From Aromatoleum anaerobium (GTDB lineage: Bacteria; Pseudomonadota; Gammaproteobacteria; Burkholderiales; Rhodocyclaceae): a stretch of 64,000 nucleotides of DNA. The DNA lies in assembly GCF_012910705.2 (NCBI RefSeq), contig NZ_WTVG02000040.1:186001-250000 (forward strand), given 5' to 3'. Positions 5,997 to 24,836 of the stretch are shown here, piece by piece. Below the pieces are notes generated by a model. It searched no databases. It was not told the DNA's origin and worked only from the letters and a program-made list of their open reading frames with translations. Within the stretch, counting starts at the first letter, position 1; the number at the start of each line of letters is the position of its first letter. A program made the translations under genes and the position numbers.

Positions 5997-6017
5997 ATAC
6001 CGTCAAAAATACCGTCA
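5997..6017 (+). repeat. Two ATACCGTCA repeats, left end of the element
   Basis: Copies lie at 5997-6005 and 6009-6017, in the same orientation and 12 bases apart. The same 9-mer occurs three times at the other end of the element beside the integrase. This pattern is expected for arm-type binding sites of a tyrosine integrase at attL and attR. The integrase role is inferred. Confidence 0.6.
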
Positions 6018-6235
6018 CCCGTAAGACATCATCCGCGCAAGCTTCCCCGGTAGCGGGTTGTAAAGGTGCCGGATGTTGCCGAGCAAGGACGACTCTGCGG
6101 GCCTTGCGGTTGCCGCCATCCGGCGTTGAAGGGTAGGCAGGCCAGCGCGCCCTGGTAAACGCGCTGGCCATGCGGGCGACCATGAAACACCCTTGCCCGT
6201 TGAAACAGATCAGGAATTCATGCTTGGGCTCGGTG

Positions 6236-6296
6236 ATTCGATCGAATAGAACTCAACCCCTACCCCCTGTCGAAAAAGTCGACTAACTCGAATAAC
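6236..6296. repeat. Repeat cluster A: palindrome plus 34-bp repeat shared with 15307-15340
   Basis: The segment 6263-6296 matches 15307-15340 at 29 of 34 bases in the same orientation. Its core is built of TCGA words spaced by AT-rich triplets (CTGTCGAAAAAGTCGACTAA). Just before it, ATTCGATCGAAT at 6236-6247 is a perfect palindrome. Cluster A lies after the last minus-strand gene, and its partner lies just before the packaging block, so the pair brackets the late genes. Confidence 0.6.
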
Positions 6297-6346
6297 ACGC
6301 GGTGCGGGGAGTGCATTGCTGTTGGTCGAGTTGGGGGCGAAGTCCA

Positions 6347-6574
6347 TCAGGCGCGATCCGCAAGCGTCGTCCGGATCTTATCCAGATAAACCGCCACGTC
6401 CTGCGAGTGGAAATACGGGATCTGCCCGCGACGAATGACCGGGATACCGAGCGTCCGCGCGCTGAGCTGGTTGCGCACGGTTCCCGGCGCCAGGTGCAGG
6501 ACTTCGCTCAGCTGCGCGACGGTGAGCAGCGGGCCGTATTTTTCGAGCAGGTAGGCGTGAACAAGCAGGGACAT
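6347..6574 (-). CDS. Small helix-turn-helix DNA-binding protein
   Basis: A 75-residue protein from the ATG at 6574. LTVAQLSEVLHLAPGTVRNQ is a helix-turn-helix of the MerR/excisionase kind, followed by RRGQIPYFHSQDVAVYLDKI, the usual wing and helix. Such proteins act as excisionases or local repressors. It is the leftmost gene of the element, and its far position from the integrase makes a regulatory role as likely as an excisionase role. Confidence 0.65.
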   Translation of the reverse strand: MSLLVHAYLLEKYGPLLTVAQLSEVLHLAPGTVRNQLSARTLGIPVIRRGQIPYFHSQDVAVYLDKIRTTLADRA

Positions 6575-6634
6575 GGTGTGACTCCGCGATTCTGTCGAAC
6601 GAGGGCGGCGCGGCGCACAGCCCTCGGCTTTGTC

Positions 6635-6676
6635 GTTGAACCCCATCCCCCGGCGGAAGCGGGGATGGGGTTCAAC
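6635..6676. repeat. Perfect 16-bp inverted repeat
   Basis: GTTGAACCCCATCCCC at 6635-6650 is followed by a 10-base loop and its exact complement at 6661-6676. No T run follows on either strand, so it is not a typical terminator. It sits between the small HTH gene and the tail-type genes. It could be a mobile palindromic repeat, an RNA stability element or a protein-binding site. Confidence 0.6.
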
Positions 6677-6780
6677 AGCGCGGGTGACCTGCCCTGCTGT
6701 CGGTCGATCCGGGCTTAGAGGGCCGCCGCCTACAGACCGGTGAAACGACTGCTTGGGGCGTGGGCGATGAAGAATACCGT

Positions 6781-7104
6781 TTACGGGTGCTCCGCGGGGT
6801 CGGGCGGCGTTGGGGTGGGGATGAGGCTGGCCGCTGCAGCAGGGGCGTGCACGCCGGTGTGATCGTAGGAGATGACGGTGTAGCCGGCGCCGTTCTGGCG
6901 GGGGGCGATCCCGTCGAATGCCCAGGCGCCGGCGGCATCGCTCCATGTTTTTGCAACAAGCACCGGTACGTTCACACTGCGCAACAGCTGCACGCGGCGC
7001 GAGGTTGGAATATTCGGCGAGCCGGCGATGGAGGTTGTGCCGCGGAGCCTATTCAGGCCGCGATCGGCACGATGGATCGTCAGGGTCGTCAGTCGCATCA
7101 TCAT
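6781..7104 (-). CDS. Phage tail-associated small beta-sandwich protein
   Basis: This has 107 residues from the first of three ATGs at 7104. The central stretch (ISGSPN-like TTSIAGSPNIPTSRRVQLL, then KTWSDAAGAWAFDGIA and YTVISYDHTG) resembles the short carboxypeptidase-regulatory-like or Ig-like domains carried by many phage tail and tail-fibre proteins. The C-terminus is Pro-rich. It starts 13 bases after the stop codon of the larger structural gene upstream, so the two form a pair. The exact tail role is not clear. Confidence 0.55.
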   Translation of the reverse strand: MMMRLTTLTIHRADRGLNRLRGTTSIAGSPNIPTSRRVQLLRSVNVPVLVAKTWSDAAGAWAFDGIAPRQNGAGYTVISYDHTGVHAPAAAASLIPTPTPPDPAEHP

Positions 7105-7117
7105 GGCCTTGTCCCCG

Positions 7118-8263
7118 TCAGTCCCATTTGCCGTTGGCGCCGAGGTCGATTGCGTAGAAGCAGTTGTGAGCGGCGACGATTCGCAGGCCATCGCCCGGCA
7201 CGCCACGTAGGCCTTCGTACGAGCCAGCGCTGAAAGGCAGGTGTCGCACTTGCGGCGCAACACCGCGGGGGATGCCTGCTGTACTGTCGTTTTCGAGGAT
7301 CTGCACCGGCTCGCTCGGCAGCGCGTCGCCAGATATTGGCGTCGCATAGCTCGCGGCGCCGGTGACATAGCTTCCCGCGAATATCGGTTTCGCCAACACC
7401 GCCCCTGCCACTCCTGCTCCGTTCCGGGCCAGGAACACTCCGTTTGTCGAGTTGCCGGTTCGGGAGTGCGGTAGGTTCCCGCTGCGTGGAGTCTGCCCGG
7501 TGTACATCGTAATTGCCTCCCCCGAAGAGTATGGCCCGCTGCACAGGGACGCGTACGCATCCCCGGCTGCAGCCCCGAGCAGATCTCCGAATGTCGCGTG
7601 ATTAAAGAGGTTCGAGTAGTACGGCGCAGAGAAAATCGCGAACCGGCGGCCGTCCGCTACCAAACGCCACGGCCTGGCGGTTCCAGAGGCGGCGTACGAT
7701 TTACCGACCCACAGTCCGCCGGATAGCTGCGTGTCCGTGGGGTACGGCCCCGTACCGGTGTCGGCGTCGCTCATCTCCTCGAACCCGCGCAGGCGCGCCG
7801 TGGTGGTGCCAGTGTCGTCGACTCGCACAAAGTGACGCAGGCCCGCAACGTCCAAGCCGCGATAGACCGCCGTATTGGTCGCCGCAAACACTTTCTCCCA
7901 TCCCGCGGGTGCCCGCATCGCGGTGATCGTGCCGGTCGCGCTGCCGGCGGCAATGCCGAGTCCGGCGACCGACCATACCGCCGTCGACCCCGTCACCGAG
8001 GCGAGCCGCCAGGCGCCGTTGAGCGCGGCAGGGGTCGCACCGGCGACGCGGATCACGTCGCCCTCCCCGTAGAAGTGACCGGCGCTGATCTGCGCGGTGG
8101 CGATGCCGTCGGCGACCGTCAGAGAGTTGATCACGCGCACGTCCCAGCCGTCGACGAGGCAGGCGTCGAGCACGCTGATCAGCGCGCCGGCCGTGCCGGA
8201 CAGCACCGGCGCGCCGGCCATGTCGGAGCGGTAGTAGCGGACCTTGTTGCTGATTGTCGTCAT
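7118..8263 (-). CDS. Phage structural (tail-tip-like) protein
   Basis: A 381-residue protein starting MTTISNKVRYYRSDM, with a good ribosome site (CCCGGAGGCATC) before the ATG at 8263. It is rich in Gly, Ala, Thr and Ser, with an N-terminal part like the appendage domains found in phage tail-tip proteins (VLSGTAGALISVLDACLVDGW). It has no signal peptide or membrane segment. Its ATG overlaps the stop codon of the preceding small gene. The call as a virion surface protein rests on composition and on resemblance to tail-end genes of other prophages. Confidence 0.55.
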   Translation of the reverse strand: MTTISNKVRYYRSDMAGAPVLSGTAGALISVLDACLVDGWDVRVINSLTVADGIATAQISAGHFYGEGDVIRVAGATPAALNGAWRLASVTGSTAVWSVAGLGIAAGSATGTITAMRAPAGWEKVFAATNTAVYRGLDVAGLRHFVRVDDTGTTTARLRGFEEMSDADTGTGPYPTDTQLSGGLWVGKSYAASGTARPWRLVADGRRFAIFSAPYYSNLFNHATFGDLLGAAAGDAYASLCSGPYSSGEAITMYTGQTPRSGNLPHSRTGNSTNGVFLARNGAGVAGAVLAKPIFAGSYVTGAASYATPISGDALPSEPVQILENDSTAGIPRGVAPQVRHLPFSAGSYEGLRGVPGDGLRIVAAHNCFYAIDLGANGKWD

Positions 8264-8478
8264 GATGCCTCCGGGTTACGGGCGGCGCCGGGGGCGGACA
8301 AACCACAACCCTCCGCCCCTTCGCCAAGAGGTTCGGCTGCACCCTGCTGGCCGCTCGGGCTCAAGCTGTCGGCCACATCTTTCTCCCGCGTGAATCGCAT
8401 CATGACCGGGCGTTTCTCTGCCTCGTCAACGGGGGCAGAGAGGACCATTGGAATGTGACCGCGCTTATTGGCAGGCAT
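8260..8478 (-). CDS. Hypothetical small protein of the element
   Basis: The ATG at 8478 gives 72 residues (MPANKRGHIPMVLSAPVDEAEK). It overlaps the 3' end of the coiled-coil gene and ends with a four-base overlap with the structural gene downstream. This coupling supports a real gene. The C-terminal half is Gly, Ala and Pro-rich and looks disordered. I do not recognise the family. Confidence 0.5.
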   Translation of the reverse strand: MPANKRGHIPMVLSAPVDEAEKRPVMMRFTREKDVADSLSPSGQQGAAEPLGEGAEGCGLSAPGAARNPEAS

Positions 8479-9361
8479 GTTCAACCCCCTCCGTCGCTTC
8501 CGGCAGGGTGATTTCTTCTACCAGCCGCCTGATGCTCCGGCCGGTCAGGCTGCCTGCGTTCGGCGCCAGGCGGTCGATATTGAGTTTGCGGAACAGGTAG
8601 TGGGCGTCCGTCCCGGCCAGGGATCGCGCCGCGACGATACGGGCGCCGATCAGGGAAAGCTGCTCGACAACGTCATCCCACTGGGCGGCGTATTTGGCTT
8701 CGATGGCGGTTCCCATCTGGAATCGCGCTTCCTTCGCACGCTCTTTCGCAGCGGCGTCCAAGTCATCGAGTTTTGCGGTTTCGGCCTGCAGCGCGTCGAG
8801 CACGACACGTTGGCGCTGCGTGGCCTCAACCGTATCCTGCGCGGCTTTGAGGGCTGCATCGGCTGTCTTCTGGGCTTTCTCGTCGCCACTGGCAACAGCT
8901 TGTGCATACACCTCTGCGGCAGCCTTTGCCGCGGCGTCCGTTTGCTCGGATGCGCTCGCGAGCTGTGATTGAAGTGCCGTCAGCTTGGCGGCGACCTGGT
9001 TGCGGCGCACGGCGATGGATTGCGATTCGGCGTGCGCTGCAGCATGTGCCGTGCGTGCCGCCTTGATGTCGCTTTCCGCGCTCTCGGTCTTGAGGCAGAA
9101 GGCCAGGCGCTTTTCCAGATCCGGGAGCTTGAAGTTACGCAGGTCGTCGACGGTCGCCTGCTCGCGGCTCAGGGTGGCGGCGATTTCTTGCGCACGGAGG
9201 TGGGCGGAGGTGGCGGCGCCCTGGTAGTTTTGCGGCAGGCGGATCTCGGCGTATTCGGCCGACAGCGCAGCAATGTGCTCGTCGAGTGCCGCGATTTGGC
9301 GGTTCACTTTGGCGATCTCGTCTTGCAGCGATTCAGCCTTGGTCTTGATGGCAGGAGGCAT
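8465..9361 (-). CDS. Coiled-coil protein of unknown function
   Basis: A 298-residue protein from the ATG at 9361 (MPPAIKTKAESLQDEIAKVN), which has an AAGGA site nine bases upstream; an ATG at 9391 is also possible. Residues 8 to about 220 are almost continuous heptad-rich helix (Ala, Gln, Glu, Lys), and a short ordered C-terminal domain follows (YLFRKLNIDRLAPNAGSL). There is no signal peptide or membrane segment. It takes the place where scaffold, capsid and tail genes would be expected after the terminase and portal genes. A scaffold-like or particle-modifying role is only a guess from that position. Confidence 0.6.
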   Translation of the reverse strand: MPPAIKTKAESLQDEIAKVNRQIAALDEHIAALSAEYAEIRLPQNYQGAATSAHLRAQEIAATLSREQATVDDLRNFKLPDLEKRLAFCLKTESAESDIKAARTAHAAAHAESQSIAVRRNQVAAKLTALQSQLASASEQTDAAAKAAAEVYAQAVASGDEKAQKTADAALKAAQDTVEATQRQRVVLDALQAETAKLDDLDAAAKERAKEARFQMGTAIEAKYAAQWDDVVEQLSLIGARIVAARSLAGTDAHYLFRKLNIDRLAPNAGSLTGRSIRRLVEEITLPEATEGVEHACQ

Positions 9362-9444: not shown

Positions 9445-9819
9445 TTATGGCGTGCTGAACACCATCGGGAGCAGGCCGATCGCTTCGGCCTCGGCGCGGC
9501 AGCGCCCGACCTGCTTGGTGCTGACGCCGACCAGGTCGGCGACGTCGCGGGCGCCTGTGCCGGCGCGCAGGAGCCCGGCGACGCGGCGCACGCGCCGCAG
9601 GCGGTGGAAATCCTCGGCGCCGGCGAGGTCGAGCTGCTCGCGTCCGAACGCGGCGGACAGGCGCAACGCGGCCTCGAGGCCGAGGGCGCGGACGATGACG
9701 TGGTCGGCCTCGATGGTTTCGGGGACGTAGAGCCGCGTGCCGCCGAAGAGCGCGAGCAGGCGCAGCGTGGCGGTGGTGCCGATGGCGGCGCCGATGTCGT
9801 CGATGAGGTTGGTTTGTAT
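9445..9819 (-). CDS. Mor-family transcription activator-like protein, second copy, likely ATA start
   Basis: The protein is collinear with the Mor-like protein at 13679-14056: IGAAIGTTATLRLLALFGGTRLYVP here against LGAVMGTEAAMRLVAVFGGGQLYVP there. Both end in a helix-turn-helix. There is no ATG, GTG or TTG between the terminase stop codon and the conserved part. The codon aligned with the paralogue's start is ATA at 9819-9817, preceded by AGGGAG at a normal distance. ATA is a rare start codon, so the start is tentative, and the alternative is translation by re-initiation after the terminase. Mor proteins activate middle or late phage genes in Mu. Confidence 0.65.
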   Translation of the reverse strand: MQTNLIDDIGAAIGTTATLRLLALFGGTRLYVPETIEADHVIVRALGLEAALRLSAAFGREQLDLAGAEDFHRLRRVRRVAGLLRAGTGARDVADLVGVSTKQVGRCRAEAEAIGLLPMVFSTP

Positions 9820-9835
9820 GGTTGTCGCTCCCTGG

Positions 9836-11935
9836 TTATCGGCTGAGATAGGCGCTTCGGGTGGCGCGCCGCTGCGGGCGTGGCGCCACGGCTGGCGGGT
9901 TGTGCTCGCGGAGCTTGGGCGGCAGCACAGGTGCGGGCCCTGACAGCTCGCCATCGGCCGGCGGCTGGGTGGGCGCTTGGGTGGAAGGGGTGGCGGTCGG
10001 CGCGGTCCCTTCCGCAACGGGAACCGAAGGCGGCGCAGAGAGGAACATGTCGGACTGCAGCGGCTCGACCTTCTGGCGCACCCTCGCCCACTCCTGCGCC
10101 GTGTAGGCATGCAGCCCGAGGTAGTACACGCCGGCGAGGTTATAGACGAAGGTGTCGAGCGCTTCGTTACGGTCGCCGGGTTTCTTTACCCATTCCGCCT
10201 TGGCATGGCCCTTGAGGTAGCGCACGAGCTTCTTTTCCGCGACCAACTGATCGAAGTATTCGTCCGGCAGTTGCGTCGAGAAGTGGCAGGCGCCCGGGCC
10301 GCTTGTGAGCGGCAGGCGGCCGTGTATCCAGTCCTTTGCCACGTCTGTACCGACGAACCACAGCTCGGCGCCGTCATTGACGGTGCTGCCGCGCCACGAG
10401 ACATCCACCTTGACCGGGCGCGAAGCCATTACGGGGCGGTTCGGTTTGGACGCACCCTTGATGCCGAGGATGTTGCGGTGCCGCCGGTGCCGGACGAAGT
10501 TGTAGACGTCCTGCGTGTTCGATCCGCCGGTATCGATGCAGCACGCAGCAATGCGCATCGGCACGCCGCGATGGTTGAGCACCGGCGTATTCAGGATTTC
10601 ATCCAGGCGGCGCCACACGTCTTCCTGCGTCGGGTCGCCCCACAGCACGCGGTAAGCGACCACCCAGTTCTCCAGCCCCTCGCCCCAGGCCTTGATTTCG
10701 AGTTCCAGCCGGCTCGGTTGCGTGTCCACCGCAGCCGTGAGCGCCAGGCCGCCGAGCGGGACGATCCCCAGCGGATAGGATTCGGCGCGCGCGCGCAGCT
10801 CGTCGGCCTTGGTCGACGACACCGCCGCATCCCAGGCCTTGGCGAGCCGGGTGTTGACGAAAACCTGCATCGGCTCGGGGTCGCCCTGATCGAGCTTCTT
10901 CTTCGCCTTGAGGTACTGGCGCGCGAGGGATAGCCAGCTCACGAATCCAAGCGGCGCATACAAGGCGTTGAGGTGGAAGCTTTCGGTCTGGCCGTCGCCG
11001 ACCTGTTCCGGGCGCCACTCCGCGGTGCCGCCCATTTCGCAGTCGGGCAGGAAGCGCGCCTTGTCGGCCTCCTCGATCTCGCAGCCGCAATGCGGGCAGA
11101 CGTACCAGGCGCGCGAGGGCAGTTCGTCGTGGTCCCAGTGGATTCCGCCGTGCGCCGTTTGGCCCGTGGCGTCCCTGACGGCAACACTCCATTCGAGCAC
11201 CTGGTGCGTGTCGCAATGCGGGCACGCGATCCAGTAGCGGTTGCGCGTGCCCTGGTTGTACAGCGCGTCGATGCGGCTCAAGCCCTCGACCGTCGGGGAG
11301 CTGGTGAGCAGGATCTTGGCGTTGTATTCGAACGTGCTGGTACGGGTTTCGGCCAGCTCGACCGGGTCGCCTTCACCGCCGACGTTGCCTTCCCATCGGC
11401 CGATCTCGTCGCCATAGACGTAGCGCGCCGGAATTTCCGCCAGGTTCGAGGCGCTGCCGGCGGTGGTGATGTAGAGCACGCCGCCGTCGAACTCCTTCGT
11501 GTCGGTGGTGTTGCGGCTGTCCCGGCTGCGGGGGGCGGCCACGCGGGCGCGCATCGCCGGCACCAGCTTGATGGCATCGGCGATGCGGGCGGAGACGCGC
11601 TTGGCGATCTTATCGGTAGGCAGTAGCGCCAGCACGTTGGCGGGCGCCTGACAGATGATCGACCCCAGCCAGTTGATCGCGGTCTGCGTCTTGAGCAACT
11701 GGCTCGGCCCTTCCACGACCACGCGCCGGCACGGATGCGACGGTGACAGGCAGCGCATGATCTGGCGGGCGAACGGCGTGCGCTCGGTGCGATAGCGTCC
11801 CGGCTCCGCGCTCTTGCCCTGCGGCAGGACCATGTTGGCGTCGGACCATCGGTCAACCGGCAGGTCGGAGTCCGGAGCGAGCCCGGCCTGCGCCGCCCGC
11901 AAGGCGACCAGGCCACCGTGTGACAATCCCTTCAT
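9836..11935 (-). CDS. Phage terminase large subunit, GpA family
   Basis: A 699-residue protein. EGPSQLLKT around 75-83 is the divergent Walker A of GpA-type terminases, and YVYGDEIGRW around 172-181 is the Walker B. Two CPHC pairs form a zinc-ribbon-like insert in the middle. The C-terminal half has the acidic patches expected of the nuclease domain (AAVDTQPSR, CIDTGGSNTQD). It would pump and cut DNA at the portal. The tail of the protein is Pro and Ala-rich. It begins seven bases after the portal stop codon. In lambda the order is terminase, connector, portal; here the terminase comes last. Confidence 0.93.
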   Translation of the reverse strand: MKGLSHGGLVALRAAQAGLAPDSDLPVDRWSDANMVLPQGKSAEPGRYRTERTPFARQIMRCLSPSHPCRRVVVEGPSQLLKTQTAINWLGSIICQAPANVLALLPTDKIAKRVSARIADAIKLVPAMRARVAAPRSRDSRNTTDTKEFDGGVLYITTAGSASNLAEIPARYVYGDEIGRWEGNVGGEGDPVELAETRTSTFEYNAKILLTSSPTVEGLSRIDALYNQGTRNRYWIACPHCDTHQVLEWSVAVRDATGQTAHGGIHWDHDELPSRAWYVCPHCGCEIEEADKARFLPDCEMGGTAEWRPEQVGDGQTESFHLNALYAPLGFVSWLSLARQYLKAKKKLDQGDPEPMQVFVNTRLAKAWDAAVSSTKADELRARAESYPLGIVPLGGLALTAAVDTQPSRLELEIKAWGEGLENWVVAYRVLWGDPTQEDVWRRLDEILNTPVLNHRGVPMRIAACCIDTGGSNTQDVYNFVRHRRHRNILGIKGASKPNRPVMASRPVKVDVSWRGSTVNDGAELWFVGTDVAKDWIHGRLPLTSGPGACHFSTQLPDEYFDQLVAEKKLVRYLKGHAKAEWVKKPGDRNEALDTFVYNLAGVYYLGLHAYTAQEWARVRQKVEPLQSDMFLSAPPSVPVAEGTAPTATPSTQAPTQPPADGELSGPAPVLPPKLREHNPPAVAPRPQRRATRSAYLSR

Positions 11936-11941
11936 GCGGGA

Positions 11942-13396
11942 TCACGCCCCGCGGCCGGAACCCCCGGCAGGCCTGACGCGCCTGTCGCGTTCGGCATCCT
12001 CGGCCCGGAGCTTGTCGACTTCGTCGGGGTCTTCGCCGGTCGCGGCGATCACTTGGCTGCGGGCACGGAAACCAGCCTCGACTTCGATTCGCTTCGCCTG
12101 GACATCCTGCACCGGGTGAATGTAGGCCCACGCCTCGGGCGCCCAGGTGACCCGCTTCGCCTCCCGGACTTCGGCCCCCGAGAGGTGGCCGCCCAGCCCT
12201 GCATGGACGGCCCAGGCGTCGCGCACGGGCTGGCACAGCATCGGAATGATGATCTGCCATTGCCGCTGTCCGCAGTGCCGGCGGAACTCGTTGAGGATGA
12301 TGCGCAGGCTGCGATCGGACACGTCCTTGAGGTCGCCGGTCAGCAGTTCATACGGCAGCCCCTGCCCAGCCGAGACGCCGAGGTGCTGGGCACGGACGAA
12401 TTCGCTGTAGTTCGCCCCCGAGTCCGGCGGCTCGGAAAACTTCACGTCCTCGCCCGGCGCGAGCTCCTGCACGAGTCCGGGCTCCATCATGATGACCGGC
12501 GAGCCATCGCTTTCGGTTGCGCTGTAGGGCTGGCCGGTGGTCACATCGATCGGCATCGGCCCGGTAGGGGTCGGTCGGGTGACGAAGAGCGTGAAGAGGT
12601 TGGCCAGGCGCTGGCGCTCGAGCACCGCGTCGTCGAAATCCATCACGCCGCGCAGCTTGGCCAGCACCGGCGCGAGGTCGGACACGCCGCGAAGCTGGCC
12701 CGGCCGCAGCGGCTCGAACATGTGCCGCATCTGGTCGACCGGCACGCGCACCAGTTCGGAGAAGTTCGCGGCGCCGAAGACCTGGTCGCCCGGATGAGTG
12801 CGGTACACCCAGTAGGCGACGCGGCGGCCGATGCGGTTGAACTCGATGCCGGAGCGGATGACGTTGCCGGCCGGCAATGGGCGGTCGATCGTCGGCACCA
12901 TGTCCGACTCGATGAGCTGGACCTGCAGCGGCACGGTAAGGCCGTCGTCGCGACGCCGAGGGCGCAGGCGAAAGAAGACTTCCCCCGAGGTGATCCACGA
13001 TCGCGTGGCGAGCGTCTGCAGGCCGTAGAAGTCGAGCACGCCGTCAGCGTCGGCCTCGCGCACCCACGAATCCCACAGCTCGATCAGCTTCGCCTTGAGC
13101 TTTGGGTCGGTGGTGCGCGGGCGCGGAACAATGCCCGAGCCGATCAGGTTGGTGACCAAGGAACGGGCGCCGGCCGCTGCGCTCCAGTCGTTGCGTACGG
13201 CATCGCGGGTGCGGTTGCGGATGGTTTCGAGGCCGGCCGTGGCGCGATTGGGTCCGGTGCTGGGGGCGCGCCAGCCCCGCATGCGCCGGCCCTGCCCGGC
13301 AGCGTCGTACTGGGCACGGGCAACGAACGGGGCATCCGCGGCGGTGTGCACCGGGGCGGCCGTGGCTGTGGGGCGGCGGGTGCGCTTGCGGGCCAT
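11942..13396 (-). CDS. Phage portal protein, lambda family
   Basis: A 484-residue protein of the lambda gpB type. Typical segments are NRTRDAVRNDWSAAAGARSLV, SWITSGEVFFRLRPRR, RVPVDQMRHMFEPLRPGQLRGVSDLAPVL and GQGLPYELLTGDLKDVSDRSLR. The portal ring forms the DNA entry channel at one vertex of the capsid and docks the terminase. Its ATG overlaps the gpW-like stop codon by one base (TGATG), so the two are coupled. The gene is full length. No capsid gene accompanies it, so the capsid it would sit in must come from elsewhere if the protein is used. Confidence 0.92.
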   Translation of the reverse strand: MARKRTRRPTATAAPVHTAADAPFVARAQYDAAGQGRRMRGWRAPSTGPNRATAGLETIRNRTRDAVRNDWSAAAGARSLVTNLIGSGIVPRPRTTDPKLKAKLIELWDSWVREADADGVLDFYGLQTLATRSWITSGEVFFRLRPRRRDDGLTVPLQVQLIESDMVPTIDRPLPAGNVIRSGIEFNRIGRRVAYWVYRTHPGDQVFGAANFSELVRVPVDQMRHMFEPLRPGQLRGVSDLAPVLAKLRGVMDFDDAVLERQRLANLFTLFVTRPTPTGPMPIDVTTGQPYSATESDGSPVIMMEPGLVQELAPGEDVKFSEPPDSGANYSEFVRAQHLGVSAGQGLPYELLTGDLKDVSDRSLRIILNEFRRHCGQRQWQIIIPMLCQPVRDAWAVHAGLGGHLSGAEVREAKRVTWAPEAWAYIHPVQDVQAKRIEVEAGFRARSQVIAATGEDPDEVDKLRAEDAERDRRVRPAGGSGRGA

Positions 13397-13602
13397 CAGT
13401 AGCCCCTCCCGCCTTGAGCGAGGTAGGCGCGCCGGGGGCGCGATTGACCCGCGGCGAGTTGGCGCTGCAGATCGTCACGGGCGAGGATGAGTTCGGAAAC
13501 CGAGCGGTATTCCACCGTGCGTCCGTCGCTGAATCGCACCAGGCGCTCGCCGTGGGCAATGGCGCCGTTCAGGCTGTCAATATCGGATTGGGTAATGGGC
13601 AT
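13396..13602 (-). CDS. gpW-like head-tail connector protein
   Basis: A 68-residue protein (MPITQSDIDSLNGAIAHGE ... VRFSDGRTVEYRSVSELILARDDL). Length and pattern match gpW of lambda, the small head-completion protein that joins the portal to the tail. The stop codon overlaps the portal start. The gpW-portal order agrees with lambda-like phages, although the terminase is displaced downstream. Confidence 0.8.
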   Translation of the reverse strand: MPITQSDIDSLNGAIAHGERLVRFSDGRTVEYRSVSELILARDDLQRQLAAGQSRPRRAYLAQGGRGY

Positions 13603-13678: not shown

Positions 13679-14056
13679 TCAGTCGTGCGGCAGGCATCGC
13701 CCGATCAGGCGCATCCGGGCGCCCTCGTTGCGGATGTTCCTGATCGTCCTCGGCGTGTAGTCAAAGCGCCGGGCGAGTTCTTCCACGGTCACGCCATCGG
13801 CGAGCAGGCGCACGACTTGGCGCACGCGACGCAGGCGCATGAACTCCCCCGCGGCGGGTACCGATATCGTTTCACCCCTCAAGGTAGCGACCAGGTGCCG
13901 GAACGGAGTCCTGCCGACTACCAGCGCGATCGGGTGCTCCGCATCGGCCATCATGGGAACGTACAACTGGCCACCGCCGAAGACCGCGACCAGGCGCATC
14001 GCCGCTTCGGTGCCCATGACGGCGCCCAGGTCTTCGAGGGTTCCGTTCAGTTTCAT
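13679..14056 (-). CDS. Mor-family transcription activator-like protein, first copy
   Basis: A 125-residue protein. RLVAVFGGGQLYVP matches the Mor core pattern seen as FGGxxxYIP in the Mu middle-operon regulator. The C-terminal VRLLADGVTVEELARRFDYTPRTIRNIRNE is a helix-turn-helix. It lies between the small terminase gene and the connector-portal-terminase block, and a paralogue lies directly after that block. It is probably a local activator of late genes. Confidence 0.75.
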   Translation of the reverse strand: MKLNGTLEDLGAVMGTEAAMRLVAVFGGGQLYVPMMADAEHPIALVVGRTPFRHLVATLRGETISVPAAGEFMRLRRVRQVVRLLADGVTVEELARRFDYTPRTIRNIRNEGARMRLIGRCLPHD

Positions 14057-17848: not shown

Positions 17849-18179
17849 CGAGCGCCTCCACAACCGCACCGGGAAACTGAGTGCAAATCTCGTTCGCCGT
17901 CGAGAGCTTCGGGCAGACAACCCGGAACGGCTCCTGCCCCGGCAGCGAGACCATCCATTCCCGGCTGGTGCGAGCGGCTGCAAAAGCCTGCATGTCCGCG
18001 AGCATCCTCTCGGCACCGGGCTGGCCTTGGCGCTTGTACATCTTCAACTGACGCACGATCTCGCGCCGCTGCGAGCGCGAGCCGTACTGCATCGTCCATT
18101 CGTAATCGACCAAGCCGGGCTGACGCGGGTTGGCATCACGGCCAAGGCCAGCCCCACGGGGATAGTTATCGTGAGCCAT
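17838..18179 (-). CDS. Hypothetical protein of the element
   Basis: The ATG at 18179 gives 113 residues (MAHDNYPRGAGLGRDANP); a GTG one codon upstream is possible. Its start overlaps the preceding stop codon as TGATG. The protein has a basic helical centre (SRSQRREIVRQLKMYKRQ) that could bind nucleic acid. No family is recognised. Its place before the Toprim gene suggests a replication or regulatory accessory role. Confidence 0.6.
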   Translation of the reverse strand: MAHDNYPRGAGLGRDANPRQPGLVDYEWTMQYGSRSQRREIVRQLKMYKRQGQPGAERMLADMQAFAAARTSREWMVSLPGQEPFRVVCPKLSTANEICTQFPGAVVEALDGF

Positions 18180-18728: not shown

Positions 18729-19760
18729 TCAGCCCTGCGCGGGTTGAGTCACAAACTCCCTTTGGTACGTCCGTTCATGAGCGAGAATCGCCCAGATCGT
18801 CCGCGCCATCTTGTTGGCCAAGGCCACCACCGCGACGTTGAGCGGTCGGCGCTGGCGTAATGCAGTCACCCACGGGCCCGGATCCTTCGCGTTCGTAAGA
18901 ACCGCCCGGGCGCCGTGGATGAGCAGCGTTCGAAGGTAGGTGTCGCCGCGCTTGCTGATGCCAAGCAATTTGACTCGCCCGCCCGTGCCGGTCTGTCGTG
19001 GCACCAGTCCGGCGAAAGCGGCAAACTCCCGCCCGGACTTGAAGGTCTTGGCATCGCCCATGATGGCGACGGCGGCGGTCGCGGTCAGCGGCCCGACGCC
19101 AGGAATCTCGGCAATGCGCCGGCAGGCAGCGTCTTGCTTGAGCCAGTCTTTGATGCGCCGCTCGATAGTGGCGATCTCGGCATCCATCTTCTCGATGCGC
19201 GCCCACTGCTCGCGCAGGGTGTCGATGACGATCGCCGGCAGGCGATCCGACAGTCGTGCCAGGGCTTGCGTGATGCCCTTCCGGATGGCGGCTTTTCCCT
19301 GCGCCATGACTTCGCCGTATTCGGTGAGCAATCCCCGCAGGCCGTTGATCTGGGCGGTGCGGAACTTGACCAGCTGGCTGCGCATGCGATGCAGCGCCAG
19401 GATCGCTTGCTGTTCCTCGCTCTTGATGGCGACGGCCTTGACGTGCGGCTGCTGTACCGCCGTCCAGATCGCCCGCGCATCGTGGCGGTCATTCTTGTTG
19501 CCCGTCACGAAGGGCTTGACCGCCTTGCCAGGAAGAAGCTTGACCTGGTGCCCCAGCGCCGTGAGGCTCCGCGCCCAGTGCTGCGCGCCGCCGCAGGCCT
19601 CCATGCCGATCAGGCAGGGCTGCCGGTTGGCGAAGTGCTCGAGAAACTTCTCGCGCTTGAGCGGCAAACTCACGATCTCTCCCGTCTCCATGTCGATCCA
19701 GTGCAACTGGAACACCCGCTTGGCAATGTCGATGCCGACGACCGTTTTGCTATCATTCAT
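18729..19760 (-). CDS. IS110-family transposase
   Basis: The ATG at 19760 gives 343 residues (MNDSKTVVGIDIAKRVFQLH). The DEDD catalytic part shows VGIDIAK, GMEACGGAQHW and NDRHDARAI. The C-terminal transposase_20 part shows IPGVGPLTATAAVAIMGD and GLVPRQTGTGGRVKLLGISKRGD. It is full length. It interrupts a run of overlapping element genes between about 18.7 and 19.9 kb. IS110 elements have no classic terminal repeats and make no target duplication, so the exact ends were not determined. Confidence 0.92.
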   Translation of the reverse strand: MNDSKTVVGIDIAKRVFQLHWIDMETGEIVSLPLKREKFLEHFANRQPCLIGMEACGGAQHWARSLTALGHQVKLLPGKAVKPFVTGNKNDRHDARAIWTAVQQPHVKAVAIKSEEQQAILALHRMRSQLVKFRTAQINGLRGLLTEYGEVMAQGKAAIRKGITQALARLSDRLPAIVIDTLREQWARIEKMDAEIATIERRIKDWLKQDAACRRIAEIPGVGPLTATAAVAIMGDAKTFKSGREFAAFAGLVPRQTGTGGRVKLLGISKRGDTYLRTLLIHGARAVLTNAKDPGPWVTALRQRRPLNVAVVALANKMARTIWAILAHERTYQREFVTQPAQG

Positions 19761-19866
19761 CTCGGACCCTCCGGTTTGCCTGTGAAGATCTTCGTATCTT
19801 CCACCTTGGCACTTTGATGCCGTCGGCCCGTGAGGGTCCACCTCTCGATCGACCACCCCCGCAGAG
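19761..19866 (-). ncRNA. Candidate bridge-RNA region of the IS110 element
   Basis: The DNA upstream of the transposase holds no gene for about 105 bases and contains a hairpin at 19784-19801 (GAAGAT, six-base loop, ATCTTC). In IS110-group elements the left non-coding end is transcribed into the bridge RNA that pairs with donor and target DNA. The call rests on position and hairpin only; the guide loops were not identified. Confidence 0.35.
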
Positions 19867-20136
19867 TTATCCACGGCGCCGGGCGCCGCAGGTCCCTCTA
19901 TCACCGCAGGCGACCGGCGCGGTGGGTAACTCGTGTTCAGCGCTCACGGGGGGCGGGAGGCGTCCATACCATTTCCTTGAAGGAAACTCACTGGGCGCAG
20001 GCTCTGCACCCCTTTGGAAATTGCCGTGCGGCATGGCAATCCGCTTTCCGAACACGCCGCAGATTGGTGAGCCAGACATGCGGCGATTCCCGGCCCGGCT
20101 CGGGTCGGCACTCTCAGGATAGTTAGCGCGCGACAT
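19867..20136 (-). CDS. Hypothetical protein, possibly truncated by the IS110 insertion
   Basis: The ATG at 20136 is preceded by GGAG at a good distance and overlaps the end of the upstream gene by 14 bases. This gives 89 residues (MSRANYPESADPSRAGNRRM). The last third is Pro and Arg-rich and may already be IS sequence. No family is recognised. The strong start signal and the coupling are the reasons for listing it. Confidence 0.45.
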   Translation of the reverse strand: MSRANYPESADPSRAGNRRMSGSPICGVFGKRIAMPHGNFQRGAEPAPSEFPSRKWYGRLPPPVSAEHELPTAPVACGDRGTCGARRRG

Positions 20137-20563: not shown

Positions 20564-20850
20564 GCATCGCCCCCTGTCTCCGGGAGGGCGATCCGCACGC
20601 GCCCCGCGATATCTGTAGTCCGTTCTAGTTCGTCGTCGAGGGCGGAGATAGCGGCGTTCGACAGGTCGAGCAGCCGCGCGACAAAGCCTCGCATGGCGCG
20701 CGAATCGATTTCGCATGCAGGATCAAGAGTGCTATGCATCACGAGGCACAGCGCCGCGATTTCCGCAGCCGCTTCCACCAGAAGACCGTGCCGGGCCGCA
20801 CCCAAGGTCACGACGCCATTCTTCTTGCTCAAGTCGGGAGCGGCGCTCAT
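20560..20850 (-). CDS. Hypothetical helical protein
   Basis: The ATG at 20850 gives 96 residues (MSAAPDLSKKNGVVTLGAAR). It is helical and acidic at the C-terminus. It overlaps its neighbours on both sides by four bases (ATGA). No family is recognised. The coupling is the main support. Confidence 0.55.
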   Translation of the reverse strand: MSAAPDLSKKNGVVTLGAARHGLLVEAAAEIAALCLVMHSTLDPACEIDSRAMRGFVARLLDLSNAAISALDDELERTTDIAGRVRIALPETGGDA

Positions 20851-21140
20851 TTTCCACTCCCCTCGTTGTTGATGGACGGCATCTCCAGCGCCGCGCTCAA
20901 CACGGCGAAGTGCCTTTCCATCTCTTCTCTCTCGCTGTCGTGCGTGCTTGCCCAATCAGAGGCCAGATAGCCTCCGATATTGGCCAGCTTGTGGGCTTGC
21001 GAACCTTCGTTAGAGGAGTCGGCAATCGCCTGGAAGAGCGCACCCAAATCGGTGAAGCAGGAATACGCCAAGTTGGCAGTGCCATGGGCGCGGCTGACGG
21101 ATTTCCATGCAGCCAGGACAGTCGGATTGTTGGTTTTCAT
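20847..21140 (-). CDS. Hypothetical protein
   Basis: A 97-residue protein (MKTNNPTVLAAWKSVSRAHG) of mixed composition, probably a small helical cytosolic protein. The stop codon overlaps the next start and the start overlaps the previous stop, both as ATGA. Family unknown. Confidence 0.55.
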   Translation of the reverse strand: MKTNNPTVLAAWKSVSRAHGTANLAYSCFTDLGALFQAIADSSNEGSQAHKLANIGGYLASDWASTHDSEREEMERHFAVLSAALEMPSINNEGSGK

Positions 21141-21472
21141 GACCGGCCCTCCTGTGCAATCCGGAGAGCAGCGCGCGCCTGTTCAATCGACAGGTCGTGC
21201 ACGAGGTAATAACCGGCGTTGTCAGGCCCCACGCCCGCGCAATCGGCCACGATCGCGGCCAGCGCGGCGAACAGATCCGGCGCGGCGACGATCAGATGCT
21301 CGTTCGCGTCGGCTTGCTCGACGCCGACACCGGCGGGCAGGACTTGGCAGACAGGTAGCCCGGCGCCATGAGCGGCGACGATGAAGCGTTGTCCGAGGCT
21401 GCGCCACGGGCCGAGGGTGAAACGGGGGGAATTCGGGGTGTGGGCGTGCGTGCCCGATGCGGTATTACGCAT
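21137..21472 (-). CDS. Hypothetical protein
   Basis: The ATG at 21472 gives 111 residues (MRNTASGTHAHTPNSPRFTL). The segment VCQVLPAGVGVEQADANEHLIVAAPDLFAAL resembles small phage proteins that include an NAxLIAxAPDLLAAL pattern, which are frequent in early regions and of unknown role. It overlaps the previous gene by eight bases and the next by four. Confidence 0.6.
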   Translation of the reverse strand: MRNTASGTHAHTPNSPRFTLGPWRSLGQRFIVAAHGAGLPVCQVLPAGVGVEQADANEHLIVAAPDLFAALAAIVADCAGVGPDNAGYYLVHDLSIEQARAALRIAQEGRS

Positions 21473-21842
21473 GGCTGAAGCTCCGTGTCGTTTGGTCTGG
21501 AGCCAGCATCCCCACGCCAATGGGGCGGCTGGCGCGTGCGGGATTGGCGTACCGGGACAACGGAACCGGCGAGCCTTGCGGCTCTCCCGCAGCGCCAGCC
21601 ATAGAAACGGCAGCACATGCGGTGGACGTAAAAAATCCGCCTGGGTGGCGGAATCGTCCGCCGTCATCATTCGGGACGCCAATCCCGTTGCCTGTTGTTT
21701 GCAGGCGAGATGGATCATGCCTGCGAAGGGGCGAGTAGGTCAAGCACGCCGACATGCCGGCGGCGATCTTCCTGCGCTTCCAGGTCCGTTTCTGCCGGCG
21801 CTCCTGCCGGGAGGGTTTTTCGTAGGGGATCGGCGCGTTCAT
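21465..21842 (-). CDS. Ash/Icd-like phage protein (tentative)
   Basis: A 125-residue protein with a strongly basic N-terminus (RQERRQKRTWKRRK). The segment SMAGAAGEPQGSPVPLSRYAN resembles the GRAGxPxGxPVS pattern of Ash-type and Icd-like proteins from P4-like elements, some of which inhibit host cell division. Pattern memory only supports this. It lies between the KilA-N gene and the small coupled genes and overlaps both. Confidence 0.45.
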   Translation of the reverse strand: MNAPIPYEKPSRQERRQKRTWKRRKIAAGMSACLTYSPLRRHDPSRLQTTGNGIGVPNDDGGRFRHPGGFFTSTACAAVSMAGAAGEPQGSPVPLSRYANPARASRPIGVGMLAPDQTTRSFSHA

Positions 21843-22540
21843 GCGGCAACCTCCAGCCGCGCCGGCCCGGCCAGCGTGAAGGCCCGGTGCTCAGTGGCGA
21901 AAACTTCGAGCGCGCATTTCCGCTCCGCGTAGTCCAGCCCTGCGCCGAGCAGCACCGCGTTCCGCTCCTCGACCTGAACGAGTAGCGCCAGGTCTTCCGA
22001 GCTCAACGCGGACCGATCGAGGGATCTGAAAACCCCGGTCAATACCCAGGCAACGAGCCGCGCCTCGTTGATGAAGTGCCGCGACTCGGCTGCCTTCCCC
22101 TGCAGCTCATGGGTCAGCCGCAGGATTTCGGACATCACGCGGAACGATGCGGCCGCTTCCCGGCGCAGTCGCTCCTGATCGAGTTGCGGGTGCGTGCCCC
22201 GGAGCAGGTTGTCAATCTGCTCGTCACACCAGATTGAAAAATCGATGTCCAGCCATCGAGCGAATGGAACACCGAGCTTCGGGTGAAGCCATGTTCCTGA
22301 ATTACAAGCCTGTCTGGTATTTCCGCCGCGGCGGGTTCTTACAAAGTGGGATTTTCCCACTTTGAACTTTCGGCACAGCGCGTCGACGTAACGCTCCGTC
22401 TCCGGCAGCCGAAGCCATTCAATCGGCTTCTTTCCGAATCGCGTGGCTGAGGCCGTCGCATTGAACCAACCTTCCCGATCGAACTGGACAGGCTGGCCCG
22501 CGTAGTCGAGCGGGACGATCTTGCCGAGGCGCGAGCTCAT
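21839..22540 (-). CDS. KilA-N domain protein (phage DNA-binding/antirepressor type)
   Basis: A 233-residue protein. FNATASATRFGKKPIEWLRL and TWLHPKLGVPFARWLDIDFSIWCDEQI are the KilA-N motif, a DNA-binding fold common in phage antirepressors and Rha/KilA-like proteins. The C-terminal part is helical (RREAAASFRVMSEILRLTHEL). Its ATG overlaps the stop codon of the AlpA-like gene, so the pair is probably a regulatory unit of the element. Confidence 0.85.
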   Translation of the reverse strand: MSSRLGKIVPLDYAGQPVQFDREGWFNATASATRFGKKPIEWLRLPETERYVDALCRKFKVGKSHFVRTRRGGNTRQACNSGTWLHPKLGVPFARWLDIDFSIWCDEQIDNLLRGTHPQLDQERLRREAAASFRVMSEILRLTHELQGKAAESRHFINEARLVAWVLTGVFRSLDRSALSSEDLALLVQVEERNAVLLGAGLDYAERKCALEVFATEHRAFTLAGPARLEVAA

Positions 22541-22773
22541 TCCGAACCACCCGACAGTGCAGCCAGGTGACGACGGATCGCTCCGACGTTCCAGCGGGTG
22601 CAGGCCGGGCCCGTCTTAATCGGCTGAAGTTTTCCGGTTCTGGCATCACGCCAGATTGAGGATTCAGACTTGCCTAGGATTGCGGCGACGGTTTTTACGT
22701 CGACCATTGCCGCGTCGGGCAGGCTATCGAAATTCGACAGTGCTGTGGGGATGGTGCTGCTATGAGGTTGCAT
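22537..22773 (-). CDS. AlpA-type helix-turn-helix regulator
   Basis: A 78-residue protein. MVDVKTVAAILGKSESSIWR followed by GKLQPIKTGPACTRWNVGAIRRHL is the AlpA/excisionase HTH pattern. AlpA of P4-like elements activates the integrase gene and excision. It starts a run of overlapping genes down to at least 19.9 kb. The 96 bases between it and the hypothetical gene to the right must hold its promoter, but I could not fix it. Confidence 0.75.
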   Translation of the reverse strand: MQPHSSTIPTALSNFDSLPDAAMVDVKTVAAILGKSESSIWRDARTGKLQPIKTGPACTRWNVGAIRRHLAALSGGSE

Positions 22774-22869
22774 CGGTTGCCTCTCCTTGCGCCGGGTGGC
22801 GCTTCGTTGAGGCGGATGATGCTCAGCCGCTTAATCCGAGAGGAGCGGCAATAATTTCTGATTTACCTG

Positions 22870-23511
22870 CTAATTTTTACCCCCCTCGTCACGACAGGAC
22901 ATGATAGATGCGACGCACTCCGCCGCATACGCCGGGGGGCTGTCAATTGGGATGAAGCAGTCAATGTCTCCATGTTCGGCACGGCCGCCGCCCCATTGGC
23001 ATAACCAGACACGCCCTTTCACCCGCAAACCGTTGCCAGTCCATTCCAAGATTGCGTCCTTTCTGACCACGATTGCCAAGCGCCCGTCTCCGCCGGCATC
23101 GCCCGAAAAGGTCAAAATGCTCTGAAAACCGTCGAGGGCTGCTTCAACGCCGGCATGCCTTGCGTGAGTCCGGATGTACTTTGCAGCCTCTTTTTCGTCA
23201 TCTCCTCCTAGACACAGCGCCCGCGCGGCACGGACACGTGCGCTCGTCTTGGATTCTCCTGTGGTCTCGGCACCGCAGAGGGCCATCTTCTCGTGAAGGT
23301 GTATTGCGACTTTGCGTGGCTGATTACTCGGACGCCCTCGTCGACGGGCTTTCTTCAGTTCGAAGAATTCTTTTGGAAAACGCCCTCGTACGGTGGCTAA
23401 GTATTCGCCATTCTGGCCCGTCATGACGCCACCAAACGGGTATGAACCGTCATGAGACTTTGCAACAGATGCATGAATTTTGAATAGGGGAGTAGGTATC
23501 TGCTGGGTCAT
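22870..23511 (-). CDS. Hypothetical protein next to the integrase
   Basis: The ATG at 23511 gives 213 residues (MTQQIPTPLFKIHASVAKSH). It has a basic segment (FFELKKARRRGRPSNQPRKV), an Ala-rich middle and a beta-rich C-terminus (WTGNGLRVKGRVWLCQWGGG). No signal peptide is present. It follows the integrase by 11 bases and shares its direction. Family unknown; a cargo or accessory role is possible. Confidence 0.6.
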   Translation of the reverse strand: MTQQIPTPLFKIHASVAKSHDGSYPFGGVMTGQNGEYLATVRGRFPKEFFELKKARRRGRPSNQPRKVAIHLHEKMALCGAETTGESKTSARVRAARALCLGGDDEKEAAKYIRTHARHAGVEAALDGFQSILTFSGDAGGDGRLAIVVRKDAILEWTGNGLRVKGRVWLCQWGGGRAEHGDIDCFIPIDSPPAYAAECVASIMSCRDEGGKN

Positions 23512-23522
23512 GCTCGAGTTTC

Positions 23523-24749
23523 CTATCTCAAACGTGCCTGGTCGATCTGTACCACTTCCGCCCCCTTTCGCAGGCGGTCGAGGTAGTCCGCCCACTGCTG
23601 CATCATCATCTTGCGCTGGGGCAGGAACTTCGTCCGGTTGTACGCGGCGCCCAAGGCATCCGGCACACGGTGCGCGAGCTGATGCTCGATCACCGCTGCG
23701 TCGACGCCCAGGGTCTCATGCAGGATCGTCCGGGCCATGGCCCGGAAACCGTGTCCGGTGATCTCGGTGCGTGTGTCGTATCCCAGGCGTCGTAAAGCGG
23801 CATTGATGGCGGCATTGGACATGGGGTGCGCCCGGGTGCGCGCACCGGGAAAGACGTACCGCCCCTGCCCGGTGAAGGGTTCCAGGTCACGCAGGATTGC
23901 AACCGCCTGCGTCGGCAGCGGGACAAGGTGATCGCGGCGGGTCTTCATCTTCTCGCCCGAAATCGACCATTCGGCCTTGTCGAGCTCGATCTCCGTCCAT
24001 TCCATTTGCCGCAGCTCGCCAGGGCGGACGAACAGCATCGGCGCCAGGCGCAGCGCACTGCGAACGATCAGCGTCCCCGTGAAACCTTCCACGGCCCGCA
24101 GCAGTGCCCCCACTTCGGCGGTGTCCGTGATCGAGGCGAAGTGCTTGCCCTTGGGCGGCGCCAGTGCGCCGCGCAGATCCGCGGACGGGTCGCGCTCAGC
24201 GCGCCCAGTGGCGATGGCATAGCGGAAGATCTGCCCGGCTGTCTGCTTGGCACGGTGCGACGTGTCGACCGCGCCCCGCTCCTCGATTCGCCGTAGGGTG
24301 GTGAGCAGTTCCACGGCGCTGACCTCCGATGCGGGCCTCTTCCCCAGCCAGGGGAAGATATCGCGCTCGAGCAGGCCGAGCACCTTGGAGCTGTGCGACG
24401 GCGCCCAGCTCGGAAGCTGGCGCGCAAACCACTCACGGGCGATGGCCTCGAACGAGTTCGACGCGGCCGTAACACGGGCGAACTTTTCGGCTTTGCGGAC
24501 TTGGCCGGGGTCATCTCCGCCAGCGAGCTGTTCCCGCGCCTGGTCGCGTCCCTTGCGGGCGGCGGCGAGGCTGACATCCGGGTAGGCACCAAGGGCGAGC
24601 GTCTTGCGCTTGCCCTCGAAGCGGTAATCGAGCCGCCACAGCTTGCCGCCGGTCGGCTGAATCAGCAGGTATAGCCCGCGCTCATCGGCGAGCTTGCGGG
24701 CCTTTTCGGCGGGTTTGGCTTGACGTACAGCGGTGTCGGTCAGTGGCAT
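23523..24749 (-). CDS. Tyrosine integrase, P4-like (DUF4102 N-terminal domain)
   Basis: The ATG at 24749 gives 408 residues. The N-terminal arm-binding domain is of the DUF4102 kind (LTDTAVRQAKPAEKARKLAD, LALGAYPDVSLAAARKGRD). The catalytic tyrosine-recombinase residues are Arg242 (RPGELR), His333 and Arg336 (HGFR), His360 (AHR) and Tyr370. All are present, so it should be active. It lies about 190 bases from the tRNA-Ala gene, with three ATACCGTCA repeats between. That is the usual arrangement of an integrase beside its own attachment site. Confidence 0.93.
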   Translation of the reverse strand: MPLTDTAVRQAKPAEKARKLADERGLYLLIQPTGGKLWRLDYRFEGKRKTLALGAYPDVSLAAARKGRDQAREQLAGGDDPGQVRKAEKFARVTAASNSFEAIAREWFARQLPSWAPSHSSKVLGLLERDIFPWLGKRPASEVSAVELLTTLRRIEERGAVDTSHRAKQTAGQIFRYAIATGRAERDPSADLRGALAPPKGKHFASITDTAEVGALLRAVEGFTGTLIVRSALRLAPMLFVRPGELRQMEWTEIELDKAEWSISGEKMKTRRDHLVPLPTQAVAILRDLEPFTGQGRYVFPGARTRAHPMSNAAINAALRRLGYDTRTEITGHGFRAMARTILHETLGVDAAVIEHQLAHRVPDALGAAYNRTKFLPQRKMMMQQWADYLDRLRKGAEVVQIDQARLR

Positions 24750-24777
24750 GGCGGCATCCTTCCCAGCGTCCGTTTTC

Positions 24778-24836
24778 ACGGTATACCGTCAAGGGTAGCG
24801 CGATACCGTCAGGTGTACCGACACCTTTGACGGTAT
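24778..24836. repeat. Three ATACCGTCA repeats and a palindrome, right end of the element
   Basis: Direct copies lie at 24783-24791 and 24803-24811, exactly 20 bases apart, and an inverted copy lies at 24828-24836. The first copy is part of the palindrome ACGGTATACCGT at 24778-24789. The same word occurs twice at the left end. These are probably integrase arm sites, and they also overlap the integrase promoter region. Confidence 0.65.

Follow-up and report, generated by a model that had tools for sequence, protein, structure and literature searches.

The DNA analysed here (the window) is a 64,000-nucleotide stretch of Aromatoleum anaerobium (contig NZ_WTVG02000040.1, positions 186,001 to 250,000; contig C2 of genome G000 in this analysis). 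It contains an integrated element of 19.0 kb at about 5925–24936, the genes of which lie on the minus strand. An earlier note, made from the sequence alone, had listed in this element an integrase, regulators, a Toprim and DUF3987 replication pair, both terminase subunits, a gpW-like connector and a portal, and all of these were recovered with Pfam and PHROGs. The packaging genes and the genes directly following them are given below in the direction of transcription.

14193..14708, minus strand: terminase small subunit, TerS (phrog_57, 4e-30)
13679..14056, minus strand: Mor-like late activator 1 (PF08765, phrog_836)
13396..13602, minus strand: gpW-like head–tail adaptor (phrog_2545, 6e-19)
11942..13396, minus strand: portal of the lambda family (PF05136, 5e-117)
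9836..11935, minus strand: terminase large subunit, TerL, of the GpA type (PF05876, PF20454; GpA ATPase 2e-76, GpA nuclease 1e-98)
about 9445..9828, minus strand: Mor-like late activator 2, start inferred (phrog_836)
8465..9361, minus strand: coiled-coil protein of long helices (its one homologue found is in G532, a genome of another genus of the same family)

The element's open reading frames (ORFs) were scanned against PHROGs (21 ORFs) and Pfam (20 ORFs), and no capsid, protease, decoration, tail-tube or lysis family was found among them. Hidden Markov models (HMMs) of related phages (major capsid protein, MCP; protease; decoration; tube; others) were run against six-frame stop-to-stop ORFs of at least 40 codons. 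The MCP, head protease and decoration models gave no match in the element, in which these HMMs matched only TerS, Mor, gpW, portal, TerL, the coiled-coil protein and a tail-assembly-like protein. The lack of detectable capsid, protease, tail-tube and lysis genes described in the note was therefore reproduced, as were its gene overlaps (gpW and portal by 1 base, Toprim and DUF3987 by 8 bp, a small helix–turn–helix, HTH, gene and KilA-N by 4 bp). Its statement that tail genes are missing held for the tail tube and failed for a tail-assembly-like gene at 7118–8263 with its small neighbour. This gene pair had been overlooked together with an IS110-family transposase and an excisionase-like HTH gene (6347–6574). 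The coiled-coil protein was predicted from its single sequence to form long helices and to be nearly all helix (mean predicted local distance difference test score, pLDDT, 79), the C-terminal 50 residues being unsure. Its PADLOC matches (JetC and others; E 0.0015 and worse) were set aside as mere coiled-coil similarity, and the accessory ORFs tested gave no match to defence families except weak coiled-coil, HTH and JAB ones.

Gene order was annotated in 85 portal loci: the window, whole-genome loci of the same family or order, 44 IMG/VR loci retrieved with the window's portal, and phage records. Near-copies were kept in and one region (G570) was counted twice. TerL and portal lay on one strand in 70 loci, with TerL first in 68 and the portal first in two, the window and G532; the rearranged order described in the note (TerS, Mor-like, connector, portal, TerL) is thus real and rare. 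Of the 85 loci, 36 had an MCP match, 19 had a protease match but none for MCP, and 30 had neither. Many of these 30 were short contigs or distant phages (portal about 35–40% identical), and the MCP model is therefore a good control for near relatives only. A close relative in which this order is combined with capsid genes placed after TerL and before the coiled-coil gene, named in the note as counter-evidence, was not found in the 85 loci (from the family, IMG/VR pattern matches and some loci of the order). Another 20 portal loci of the family looked like ordinary phages or were on cut contigs; 14 had MCP, three had protease without MCP (L238, L241, L243) and three, none of them portal-first, had neither (including L239 and L242 at contig ends). 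No further portal-first element was obtained from a TerL search of the two genera (2 of 6 genomes for the genus of G532, 5 of 17 for the window's own). Viral contigs searched with a two-row TerL alignment yielded one distant relative only (25%), a single TerL scan of genome contigs yielded one match, the ordinary prophage L087, and no relative of DUF3987 was found in viral contigs.

The element in G532 begins with an integrase, a RadC-like gene, ORFs without assignment, an AAA/replication protein, TerS and a neck gene (phrog_27), and continues with Mor, gpW, portal, TerL, a HipA-like gene, the coiled-coil gene, a gene for a 1300-residue tape measure, a further gene and tRNA-Leu. The order from TerS through Mor, gpW, portal and TerL to the coiled-coil gene is that of the window, and HMMs for MCP, protease and decoration protein gave no match in 39.4 kb around the packaging block. 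The search of related genomes proposed in the note thus located the same capsid-free order in one other genome. Protein identities between the two elements are 73% for TerS, 62% for Mor, 72% for gpW, 75% for the portal, 84% for TerL and 41% for the coiled-coil protein. DNA similarity is confined to TerS–TerL (10029–14047, 77% over 4.07 kb; 14225–14693, 76% over 0.47 kb), with a weak continuation of about 75 bp upstream of TerS, which could hold the packaging signal:

14711..14785, minus strand: non-coding stretch upstream of TerS, partly conserved with G532 by local alignment; weak candidate for a packaging signal

The integrases and the replication proteins of the two elements showed no relationship by the searches made, and their tail genes differ too. 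With similarity limited to TerS–TerL and no kinship between the integrases or between the replication genes, the block acts like a unit that two different elements have retained. The coiled-coil gene was present in 2 of 395 genomes of the family, those of the window's host and G532, and its protein had no relative in 50,697 phage records or in viral contigs. The G532 tape measure shares 65% identity with the one in G562, which is a full prophage from the genus of G532. A shortening of tails by a shorter tape measure in G532 was considered and rejected, the 1300 residues exceeding the open segment of 1179 codons in G562. The HipA-like gene (L119, 4188–5504; PF07804), the product of which has a winged helix at its N terminus, follows TerL and precedes the coiled-coil gene and is thus cargo carried within the packaging module.

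Selection was estimated from Nei–Gojobori counts between the window and G532 (dS 0.79–1.29). The dN/dS ratios were 0.26 for TerS, 0.20 for Mor, 0.19 for gpW, 0.20 for the portal and 0.14 for TerL, compared with 0.53 for the coiled-coil gene. The packaging block contains no internal stops, the single stop in the TerS stretch of G532 being its natural end. The packaging genes, which the note had described as intact, therefore appear so (no stops, dN/dS 0.14–0.26), and in the test for purifying selection that it proposed the frames common to both elements proved constrained. To judge from these ratios the block TerS, Mor, gpW, portal and TerL is under purifying selection, part of which may be older than the loss or absence of capsid genes. 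The window and G532 are sisters (100/100) in the portal tree, and their end branches of 0.17 and 0.20 are similar in length to those of the ordinary prophages G490, G674 and G562 (0.11, 0.18 and 0.21).

The element is inserted at the 3′ end of a tRNA-Ala(CGC) gene, where its right end falls. The left end, placed by the note at 5997, was moved to about 5925, position 5997 being the first ATACCGTCA copy. The ends were assigned as follows.

24937..25012, minus strand: tRNA-Ala (CGC), integration target (ARAGORN)
24936..24957: right attachment end, inside the 3′ end of tRNA-Ala(CGC) (ARAGORN, empty-site alignment)
5923..5944: left attachment-like end, which copies the 3′ end of tRNA-Ala imperfectly, with CCGAAAGG, ATC and AAC in common (alignment to the unoccupied site in G662 and G685)
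5997..6017, plus strand: two ATACCGTCA repeats, which probably serve as arm sites of the integrase (repeat count; G441 likewise at both ends)
24783..24836: three ATACCGTCA repeats, of which one is inverted, probably likewise arm sites of the integrase (repeat count)

The end repeat is imperfect, CCGAAAGG...ATC.AAC being common to both ends. In G662 and G685, of the window's own genus, the site is empty and the flank left of 5944 joins the flank right of 24933 directly; about 19.0 kb has therefore been inserted here. The empty-site evidence comes from these two genomes only: G526 was rejected as a third, since it has a weak match (72%) near the tRNA but its strong left-flank match lies about 50 kb off. 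The repeat ATACCGTCA or its complement occurs five times (5997, 6009, 24783, 24803 and 24828), all at the two ends of the element, with no copy elsewhere in the window and 0.2 expected by base composition in 64 kb. The same repeats stand at both ends of a cousin element in G441, the integrase of which is 71% identical.

The tRNA-Ala(CGC) gene is an integration hotspot: G490 has another insertion there (about 20.5 kb), as G619 probably does (about 11.6 kb); these gave no match to the element queries used and are unrelated elements. In G526 it is occupied too, with about 50 kb between the flanks. Just beyond the left end, window 2900–4407 is repeated many times in the host's own genome (two copies at 100%, many more at 83–84%) and, lying around an ORF of 432 residues, is probably an insertion sequence. 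At the right edge of the window (63673–64000) ARAGORN reports a tmRNA of the permuted type with the tag ANDERFAVAA.

The order from the integrase leftwards is integrase, ORF without match, small HTH gene, KilA-N gene, two small ORFs, IS110-family transposase, Toprim, DUF3987, an ORF of 146 residues and TerS, then Mor-like 1, gpW-like, portal and TerL; the far end consists of Mor-like 2, the coiled-coil gene, an ORF of 74 residues, the tail-assembly-like gene, its small neighbour and the excisionase-like HTH gene. The features outside the packaging block are listed here.

23523..24779, minus strand: tyrosine integrase (PF13356, PF22022, PF00589)
22870..23595, minus strand: ORF without Pfam or PHROG match
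22537..22773, minus strand: small HTH/excisionase-like regulator (phrog_66, 1e-5)
21839..22540, minus strand: KilA-N domain regulator (PF04383, 2.5e-15)
21137..21718, minus strand: small ORF, phrog_1273, longest open start taken (PHROG; homologue in G441)
20847..21140, minus strand: small ORF, phrog_27414 (PHROG)
18729..19904, minus strand: IS110-family transposase ORF in the early region (PF01548, PF02371)
17024..17851, minus strand: Toprim primase-like protein (PF13362; phrog_2249, 9e-73; 78% identical in G441)
15475..17031, minus strand: DUF3987 helicase-like replication protein (PF13148, 2e-101; phrog_2373; 73% identical in G441)
15314..15396: iteron-like TCGAATAAGTCGA repeats, candidate origin, inferred (copies with at most two mismatches; within the window, only in the element)
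7118..8263, minus strand: tail-assembly-like protein, which closes the tail module of ordinary prophages (phrog_9998, 3e-66; phrog_9600, 5e-24)
6781..7104, minus strand: small protein, which also comes after the tail-assembly gene in ordinary prophages
6347..6574, minus strand: excisionase-like HTH protein (phrog_1300, 1.6e-5)

A second iteron-like TCGAATAAGTCGA place lies at about 6271–6291, with a copy at 6279–6291; the two places recall paired origins, although a role in replication is a guess.

Three more elements, in G441, G583 and G423, came from the family loci that have the nearest portals; they combine an integrase and replication genes with TerS and a portal, and neither TerL nor a capsid gene was detected in them. 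The G441 element has integrase, Toprim (78%) and DUF3987 (73%) genes as in the window, followed by a TerS-like gene, small ORFs and the portal, where it ends. The G583 element (about 11.5 kb) lies between perfect 49 bp repeats equal to the 3′ end of tRNA-His and holds an integrase, a helicase, a Toprim primase, TerS, a coiled-coil ORF, protein Y, Mor, two ORFs and a portal of 588 residues. The G423 element reads integrase, DUF5906 primase, TerS, coiled-coil ORF, protein Y, Mor and portal. Protein Y was recorded as shared by all three (35–39% identical) and had no match in the 50,697 phage records, PHROGs, the other loci fetched or viral contigs. Genome-wide, no TerL was found in G441 or G423. 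In G583 one lies away from the element, on contig C31, and a distant second portal lies on C165; another prophage may therefore be present in its genome.

The genomes were also searched for MCP with an alignment from G490, G674 and G562. Control genomes gave one or two matches each (G490, G674, G562, G503 and G558, the last two alone being independent of the alignment), and MCP of this family was not found in G000, G532, G441, G583 or G423. It follows that no capsid gene of that family lies elsewhere in these five host genomes and, equally, no resident helper of this kind was seen. Mor-like 2 shares 89% identity with the gene that follows TerL in the full prophage G490, from the window's own genus, so that both elements contain a late gene closely resembling that of a phage from their respective genera (G490 and G562). 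This closeness fits exchange with helpers and equally descent from such a phage. In the full prophages G674, G490, G562, L047, L054 and L058 the phage HMMs left blank the portal–protease gaps (about 1.5 to 6 kb) and some TerL–gpW gaps; these gaps in the head module are possible cargo sites.

The means by which known satellites redirect packaging are a terminase subunit or adaptor, a shell-shrinking scaffold, or a whole capsid module that they bring along. Ordinary siphophages and prophages of the family and Pseudomonas phage Lodos (OR683405) have homologous TerL (51–55% to Lodos and G027), portal (up to 65% in G674 and L044), gpW, Mor and tail-assembly genes, but in the order TerS, TerL, (Mor), gpW, portal, protease, decoration, MCP and tail, whereas in the window the portal precedes TerL and protease, decoration, MCP and tail tube are lacking. 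Capsid-forming phage-inducible chromosomal islands (cf-PICIs) and the Streptomyces satellites MulchRoom and MiniFlayer are described as carrying their own TerS, TerL, portal and connectors plus a major capsid protein; cf-PICIs also encode a protease, and the helper supplies tails (PMC10690885). The window's element likewise has its own terminase subunits, portal and connector but, unlike a cf-PICI, no detected gene for a major capsid protein or head protease. Gram-negative PICIs are given as 10–20 kb elements with an integrase, a small HTH/AlpA-like regulator, their own replication genes, captured phage late genes and in some cases terS (PMC6092414, PMC10111431). The major capsid gene, carried by 21 of 29 reference PICIs, is their commonest late gene, and clusters of captured late genes can occur in elongated PICIs (PMC10111431). 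The word 'portal' is absent from the main texts of these two papers and of a review (PMC11389934). The window's element resembles these islands by gene type only (integrase, two small excisionase/HTH proteins, Toprim and DUF3987 in 19.0 kb) and has the reverse late set, namely portal, connector and both terminase subunits with no capsid gene. P4-like satellites and Pseudomonas AH14b have an integrase and their own primase and are packaged in helper shells, as shown for AH14b with AH14a; no terminase was identified in AH14b by its authors, and P4 uses the terminase of P2 and Sid (PMC4936722). The window's element shares integrase and primase with these but has its own terminase and portal, and this terminase argues against a P4-like identity. 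The P4 genes sid, psu and delta had no match among the 21 element ORFs scanned against PHROGs, although no search aimed at P4 proteins was made. No satellite that has both a portal and a terminase yet no capsid gene was found described in the open full-text literature, a scope outside which the main census (NAR 2023) and papers under other licences fall. The element is probably best placed as a variant within the known kind of phage satellites, and no priority over published work is claimed.

We consider it probable that the element is a satellite with its own terminase, portal and connector that borrows the shell and tail of a helper, in line with the note's suggestion of a satellite that packages its DNA into helper heads. 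It is an integrative element with integrase and replication genes and without the full virion gene set. An intact lambda-type siphophage prophage would have packaging, capsid, tail and lysis modules with TerL first, which is not what was found. In tailed phages the portal, a dodecameric gate, nucleates shell assembly and docks the terminase. The DNA-side motor (TerS and TerL), portal and gpW, the plug that comes after DNA entry, are present and constrained with no shell. Uptake of the portal by helper shells, which would make those heads specific for the element's terminase, is therefore the economical reading; helper dependence, portal exchange and packaging of the element are deduced here from gene content. 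The element would integrate at the tRNA 3′ end and replicate by its own Toprim and DUF3987 proteins. When a related siphophage grows in the cell, the element's portal would be built into shells of helper capsid protein and would offer a docking site for the element's own terminase. TerS would then recognize the element's own packaging site so that element DNA is loaded, gpW would cap the head and the helper's tail would be added. The Mor-like protein or proteins may time late expression with the helper, and a part of the coiled-coil protein in shell assembly (scaffold-like) or in interference is a guess. More tentatively, the five elements may belong to a satellite group that steals heads by portal swap. 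They would contribute TerS and portal, joined by TerL and connector where the set is fuller, the helper would provide the shell, and the portal would have been recruited from siphophages at least twice. The point of hijack would then be the portal, instead of scaffold, capsid protein or TerS alone. A single clade of satellite portals was unsupported by the tree, on which three label changes were counted, at least two of them forced.

Several observations weigh against a satellite. The full packaging set occurs in only two elements, and no TerL was detected in the three cousins. The portals of the five elements do not form one clade, as independent decays would also give, and no resident helper was seen in the host genomes. 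The window keeps the gene pair that closes the tail module of ordinary prophages, G532 keeps its neck gene and the 1300-residue tape-measure gene, as would be the case for leftovers, and the IS110 transposase sits inside the window's element. At the ends of the G532 element no repeat of at least 12 bp was found between tRNA-Leu and the integrase side, G441 contains two transposase ORFs (by inspection), the G423 contig stops 460 bp past the portal with the far end off the contig, and protein Y was found in none of 399 genomes of the order, a count of little weight as the set holds no known positive. Much of this would suit decay of one or more prophages, in which an internal deletion removed the genes from capsid to tail from a siphophage whose packaging module was rearranged, separately in the window and G532 or in a shared ancestor, and the remainder has yet to decay. 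Both edges of the structural module would remain (packaging and tail-end genes) with the middle gone, the tail remnants would differ between window and G532 as they do, and the transposase, the missing helper MCP and the closeness of late genes such as Mor-like 2 to ordinary prophages would fit. Decay nevertheless does not readily account for a capsid-less block that recurs with one rare gene order in elements of two genera, the integrases and replication genes of which are unrelated, nor for the compact, intact, capsid-less cousin in G583 with its perfect attachment repeats. None of the 85 portal loci combines this order with capsid genes. TerS, Mor, gpW, portal and TerL showed neither broken frames nor relaxed selection (dN/dS of the coiled-coil gene, 0.53), though part of the selection could predate the loss. 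We regard decay as rather unlikely and favour the satellite reading, at the strength given above.

If the portal and terminase instead served to poison the assembly of infecting phages, the element would be an anti-phage island that is itself not packaged. Purifying selection would agree with this, and the keepers of a portal without TerL (G441, G583 and G423) are easier to read in this way than as complete motors. Such an island would, however, have no need of TerS, TerL, portal and connector together; the integrase, the arm-like sites and the genes for replication suggest that the element is mobile, and the defence families gave only the weak matches mentioned. Interference is accordingly judged improbable. 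Least probable of all, and very unlikely, is a complete phage with a capsid protein too diverged to recognize, encoded in an ORF without assignment such as the coiled-coil gene. Several element ORFs have no family match and the MCP model does miss distant phages, as the 30 loci with neither MCP nor protease illustrate. It would nevertheless be odd for a portal and TerL this close to phages with a recognizable MCP, and the coiled-coil protein is predicted to be nearly all helix. Neither a tail-tube nor a lysis family was found in the element, and siphophages of this group are larger than 19 kb as a rule, related phage records measuring about 39–79 kb.

Prophage callers will file elements of this type as broken prophages. 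If the satellite reading is true, the specificity of the portal in packaging would be directly testable in nature. The element would represent an intermediate form, a motor and portal without a shell, in which shell and portal can come from different genomes.

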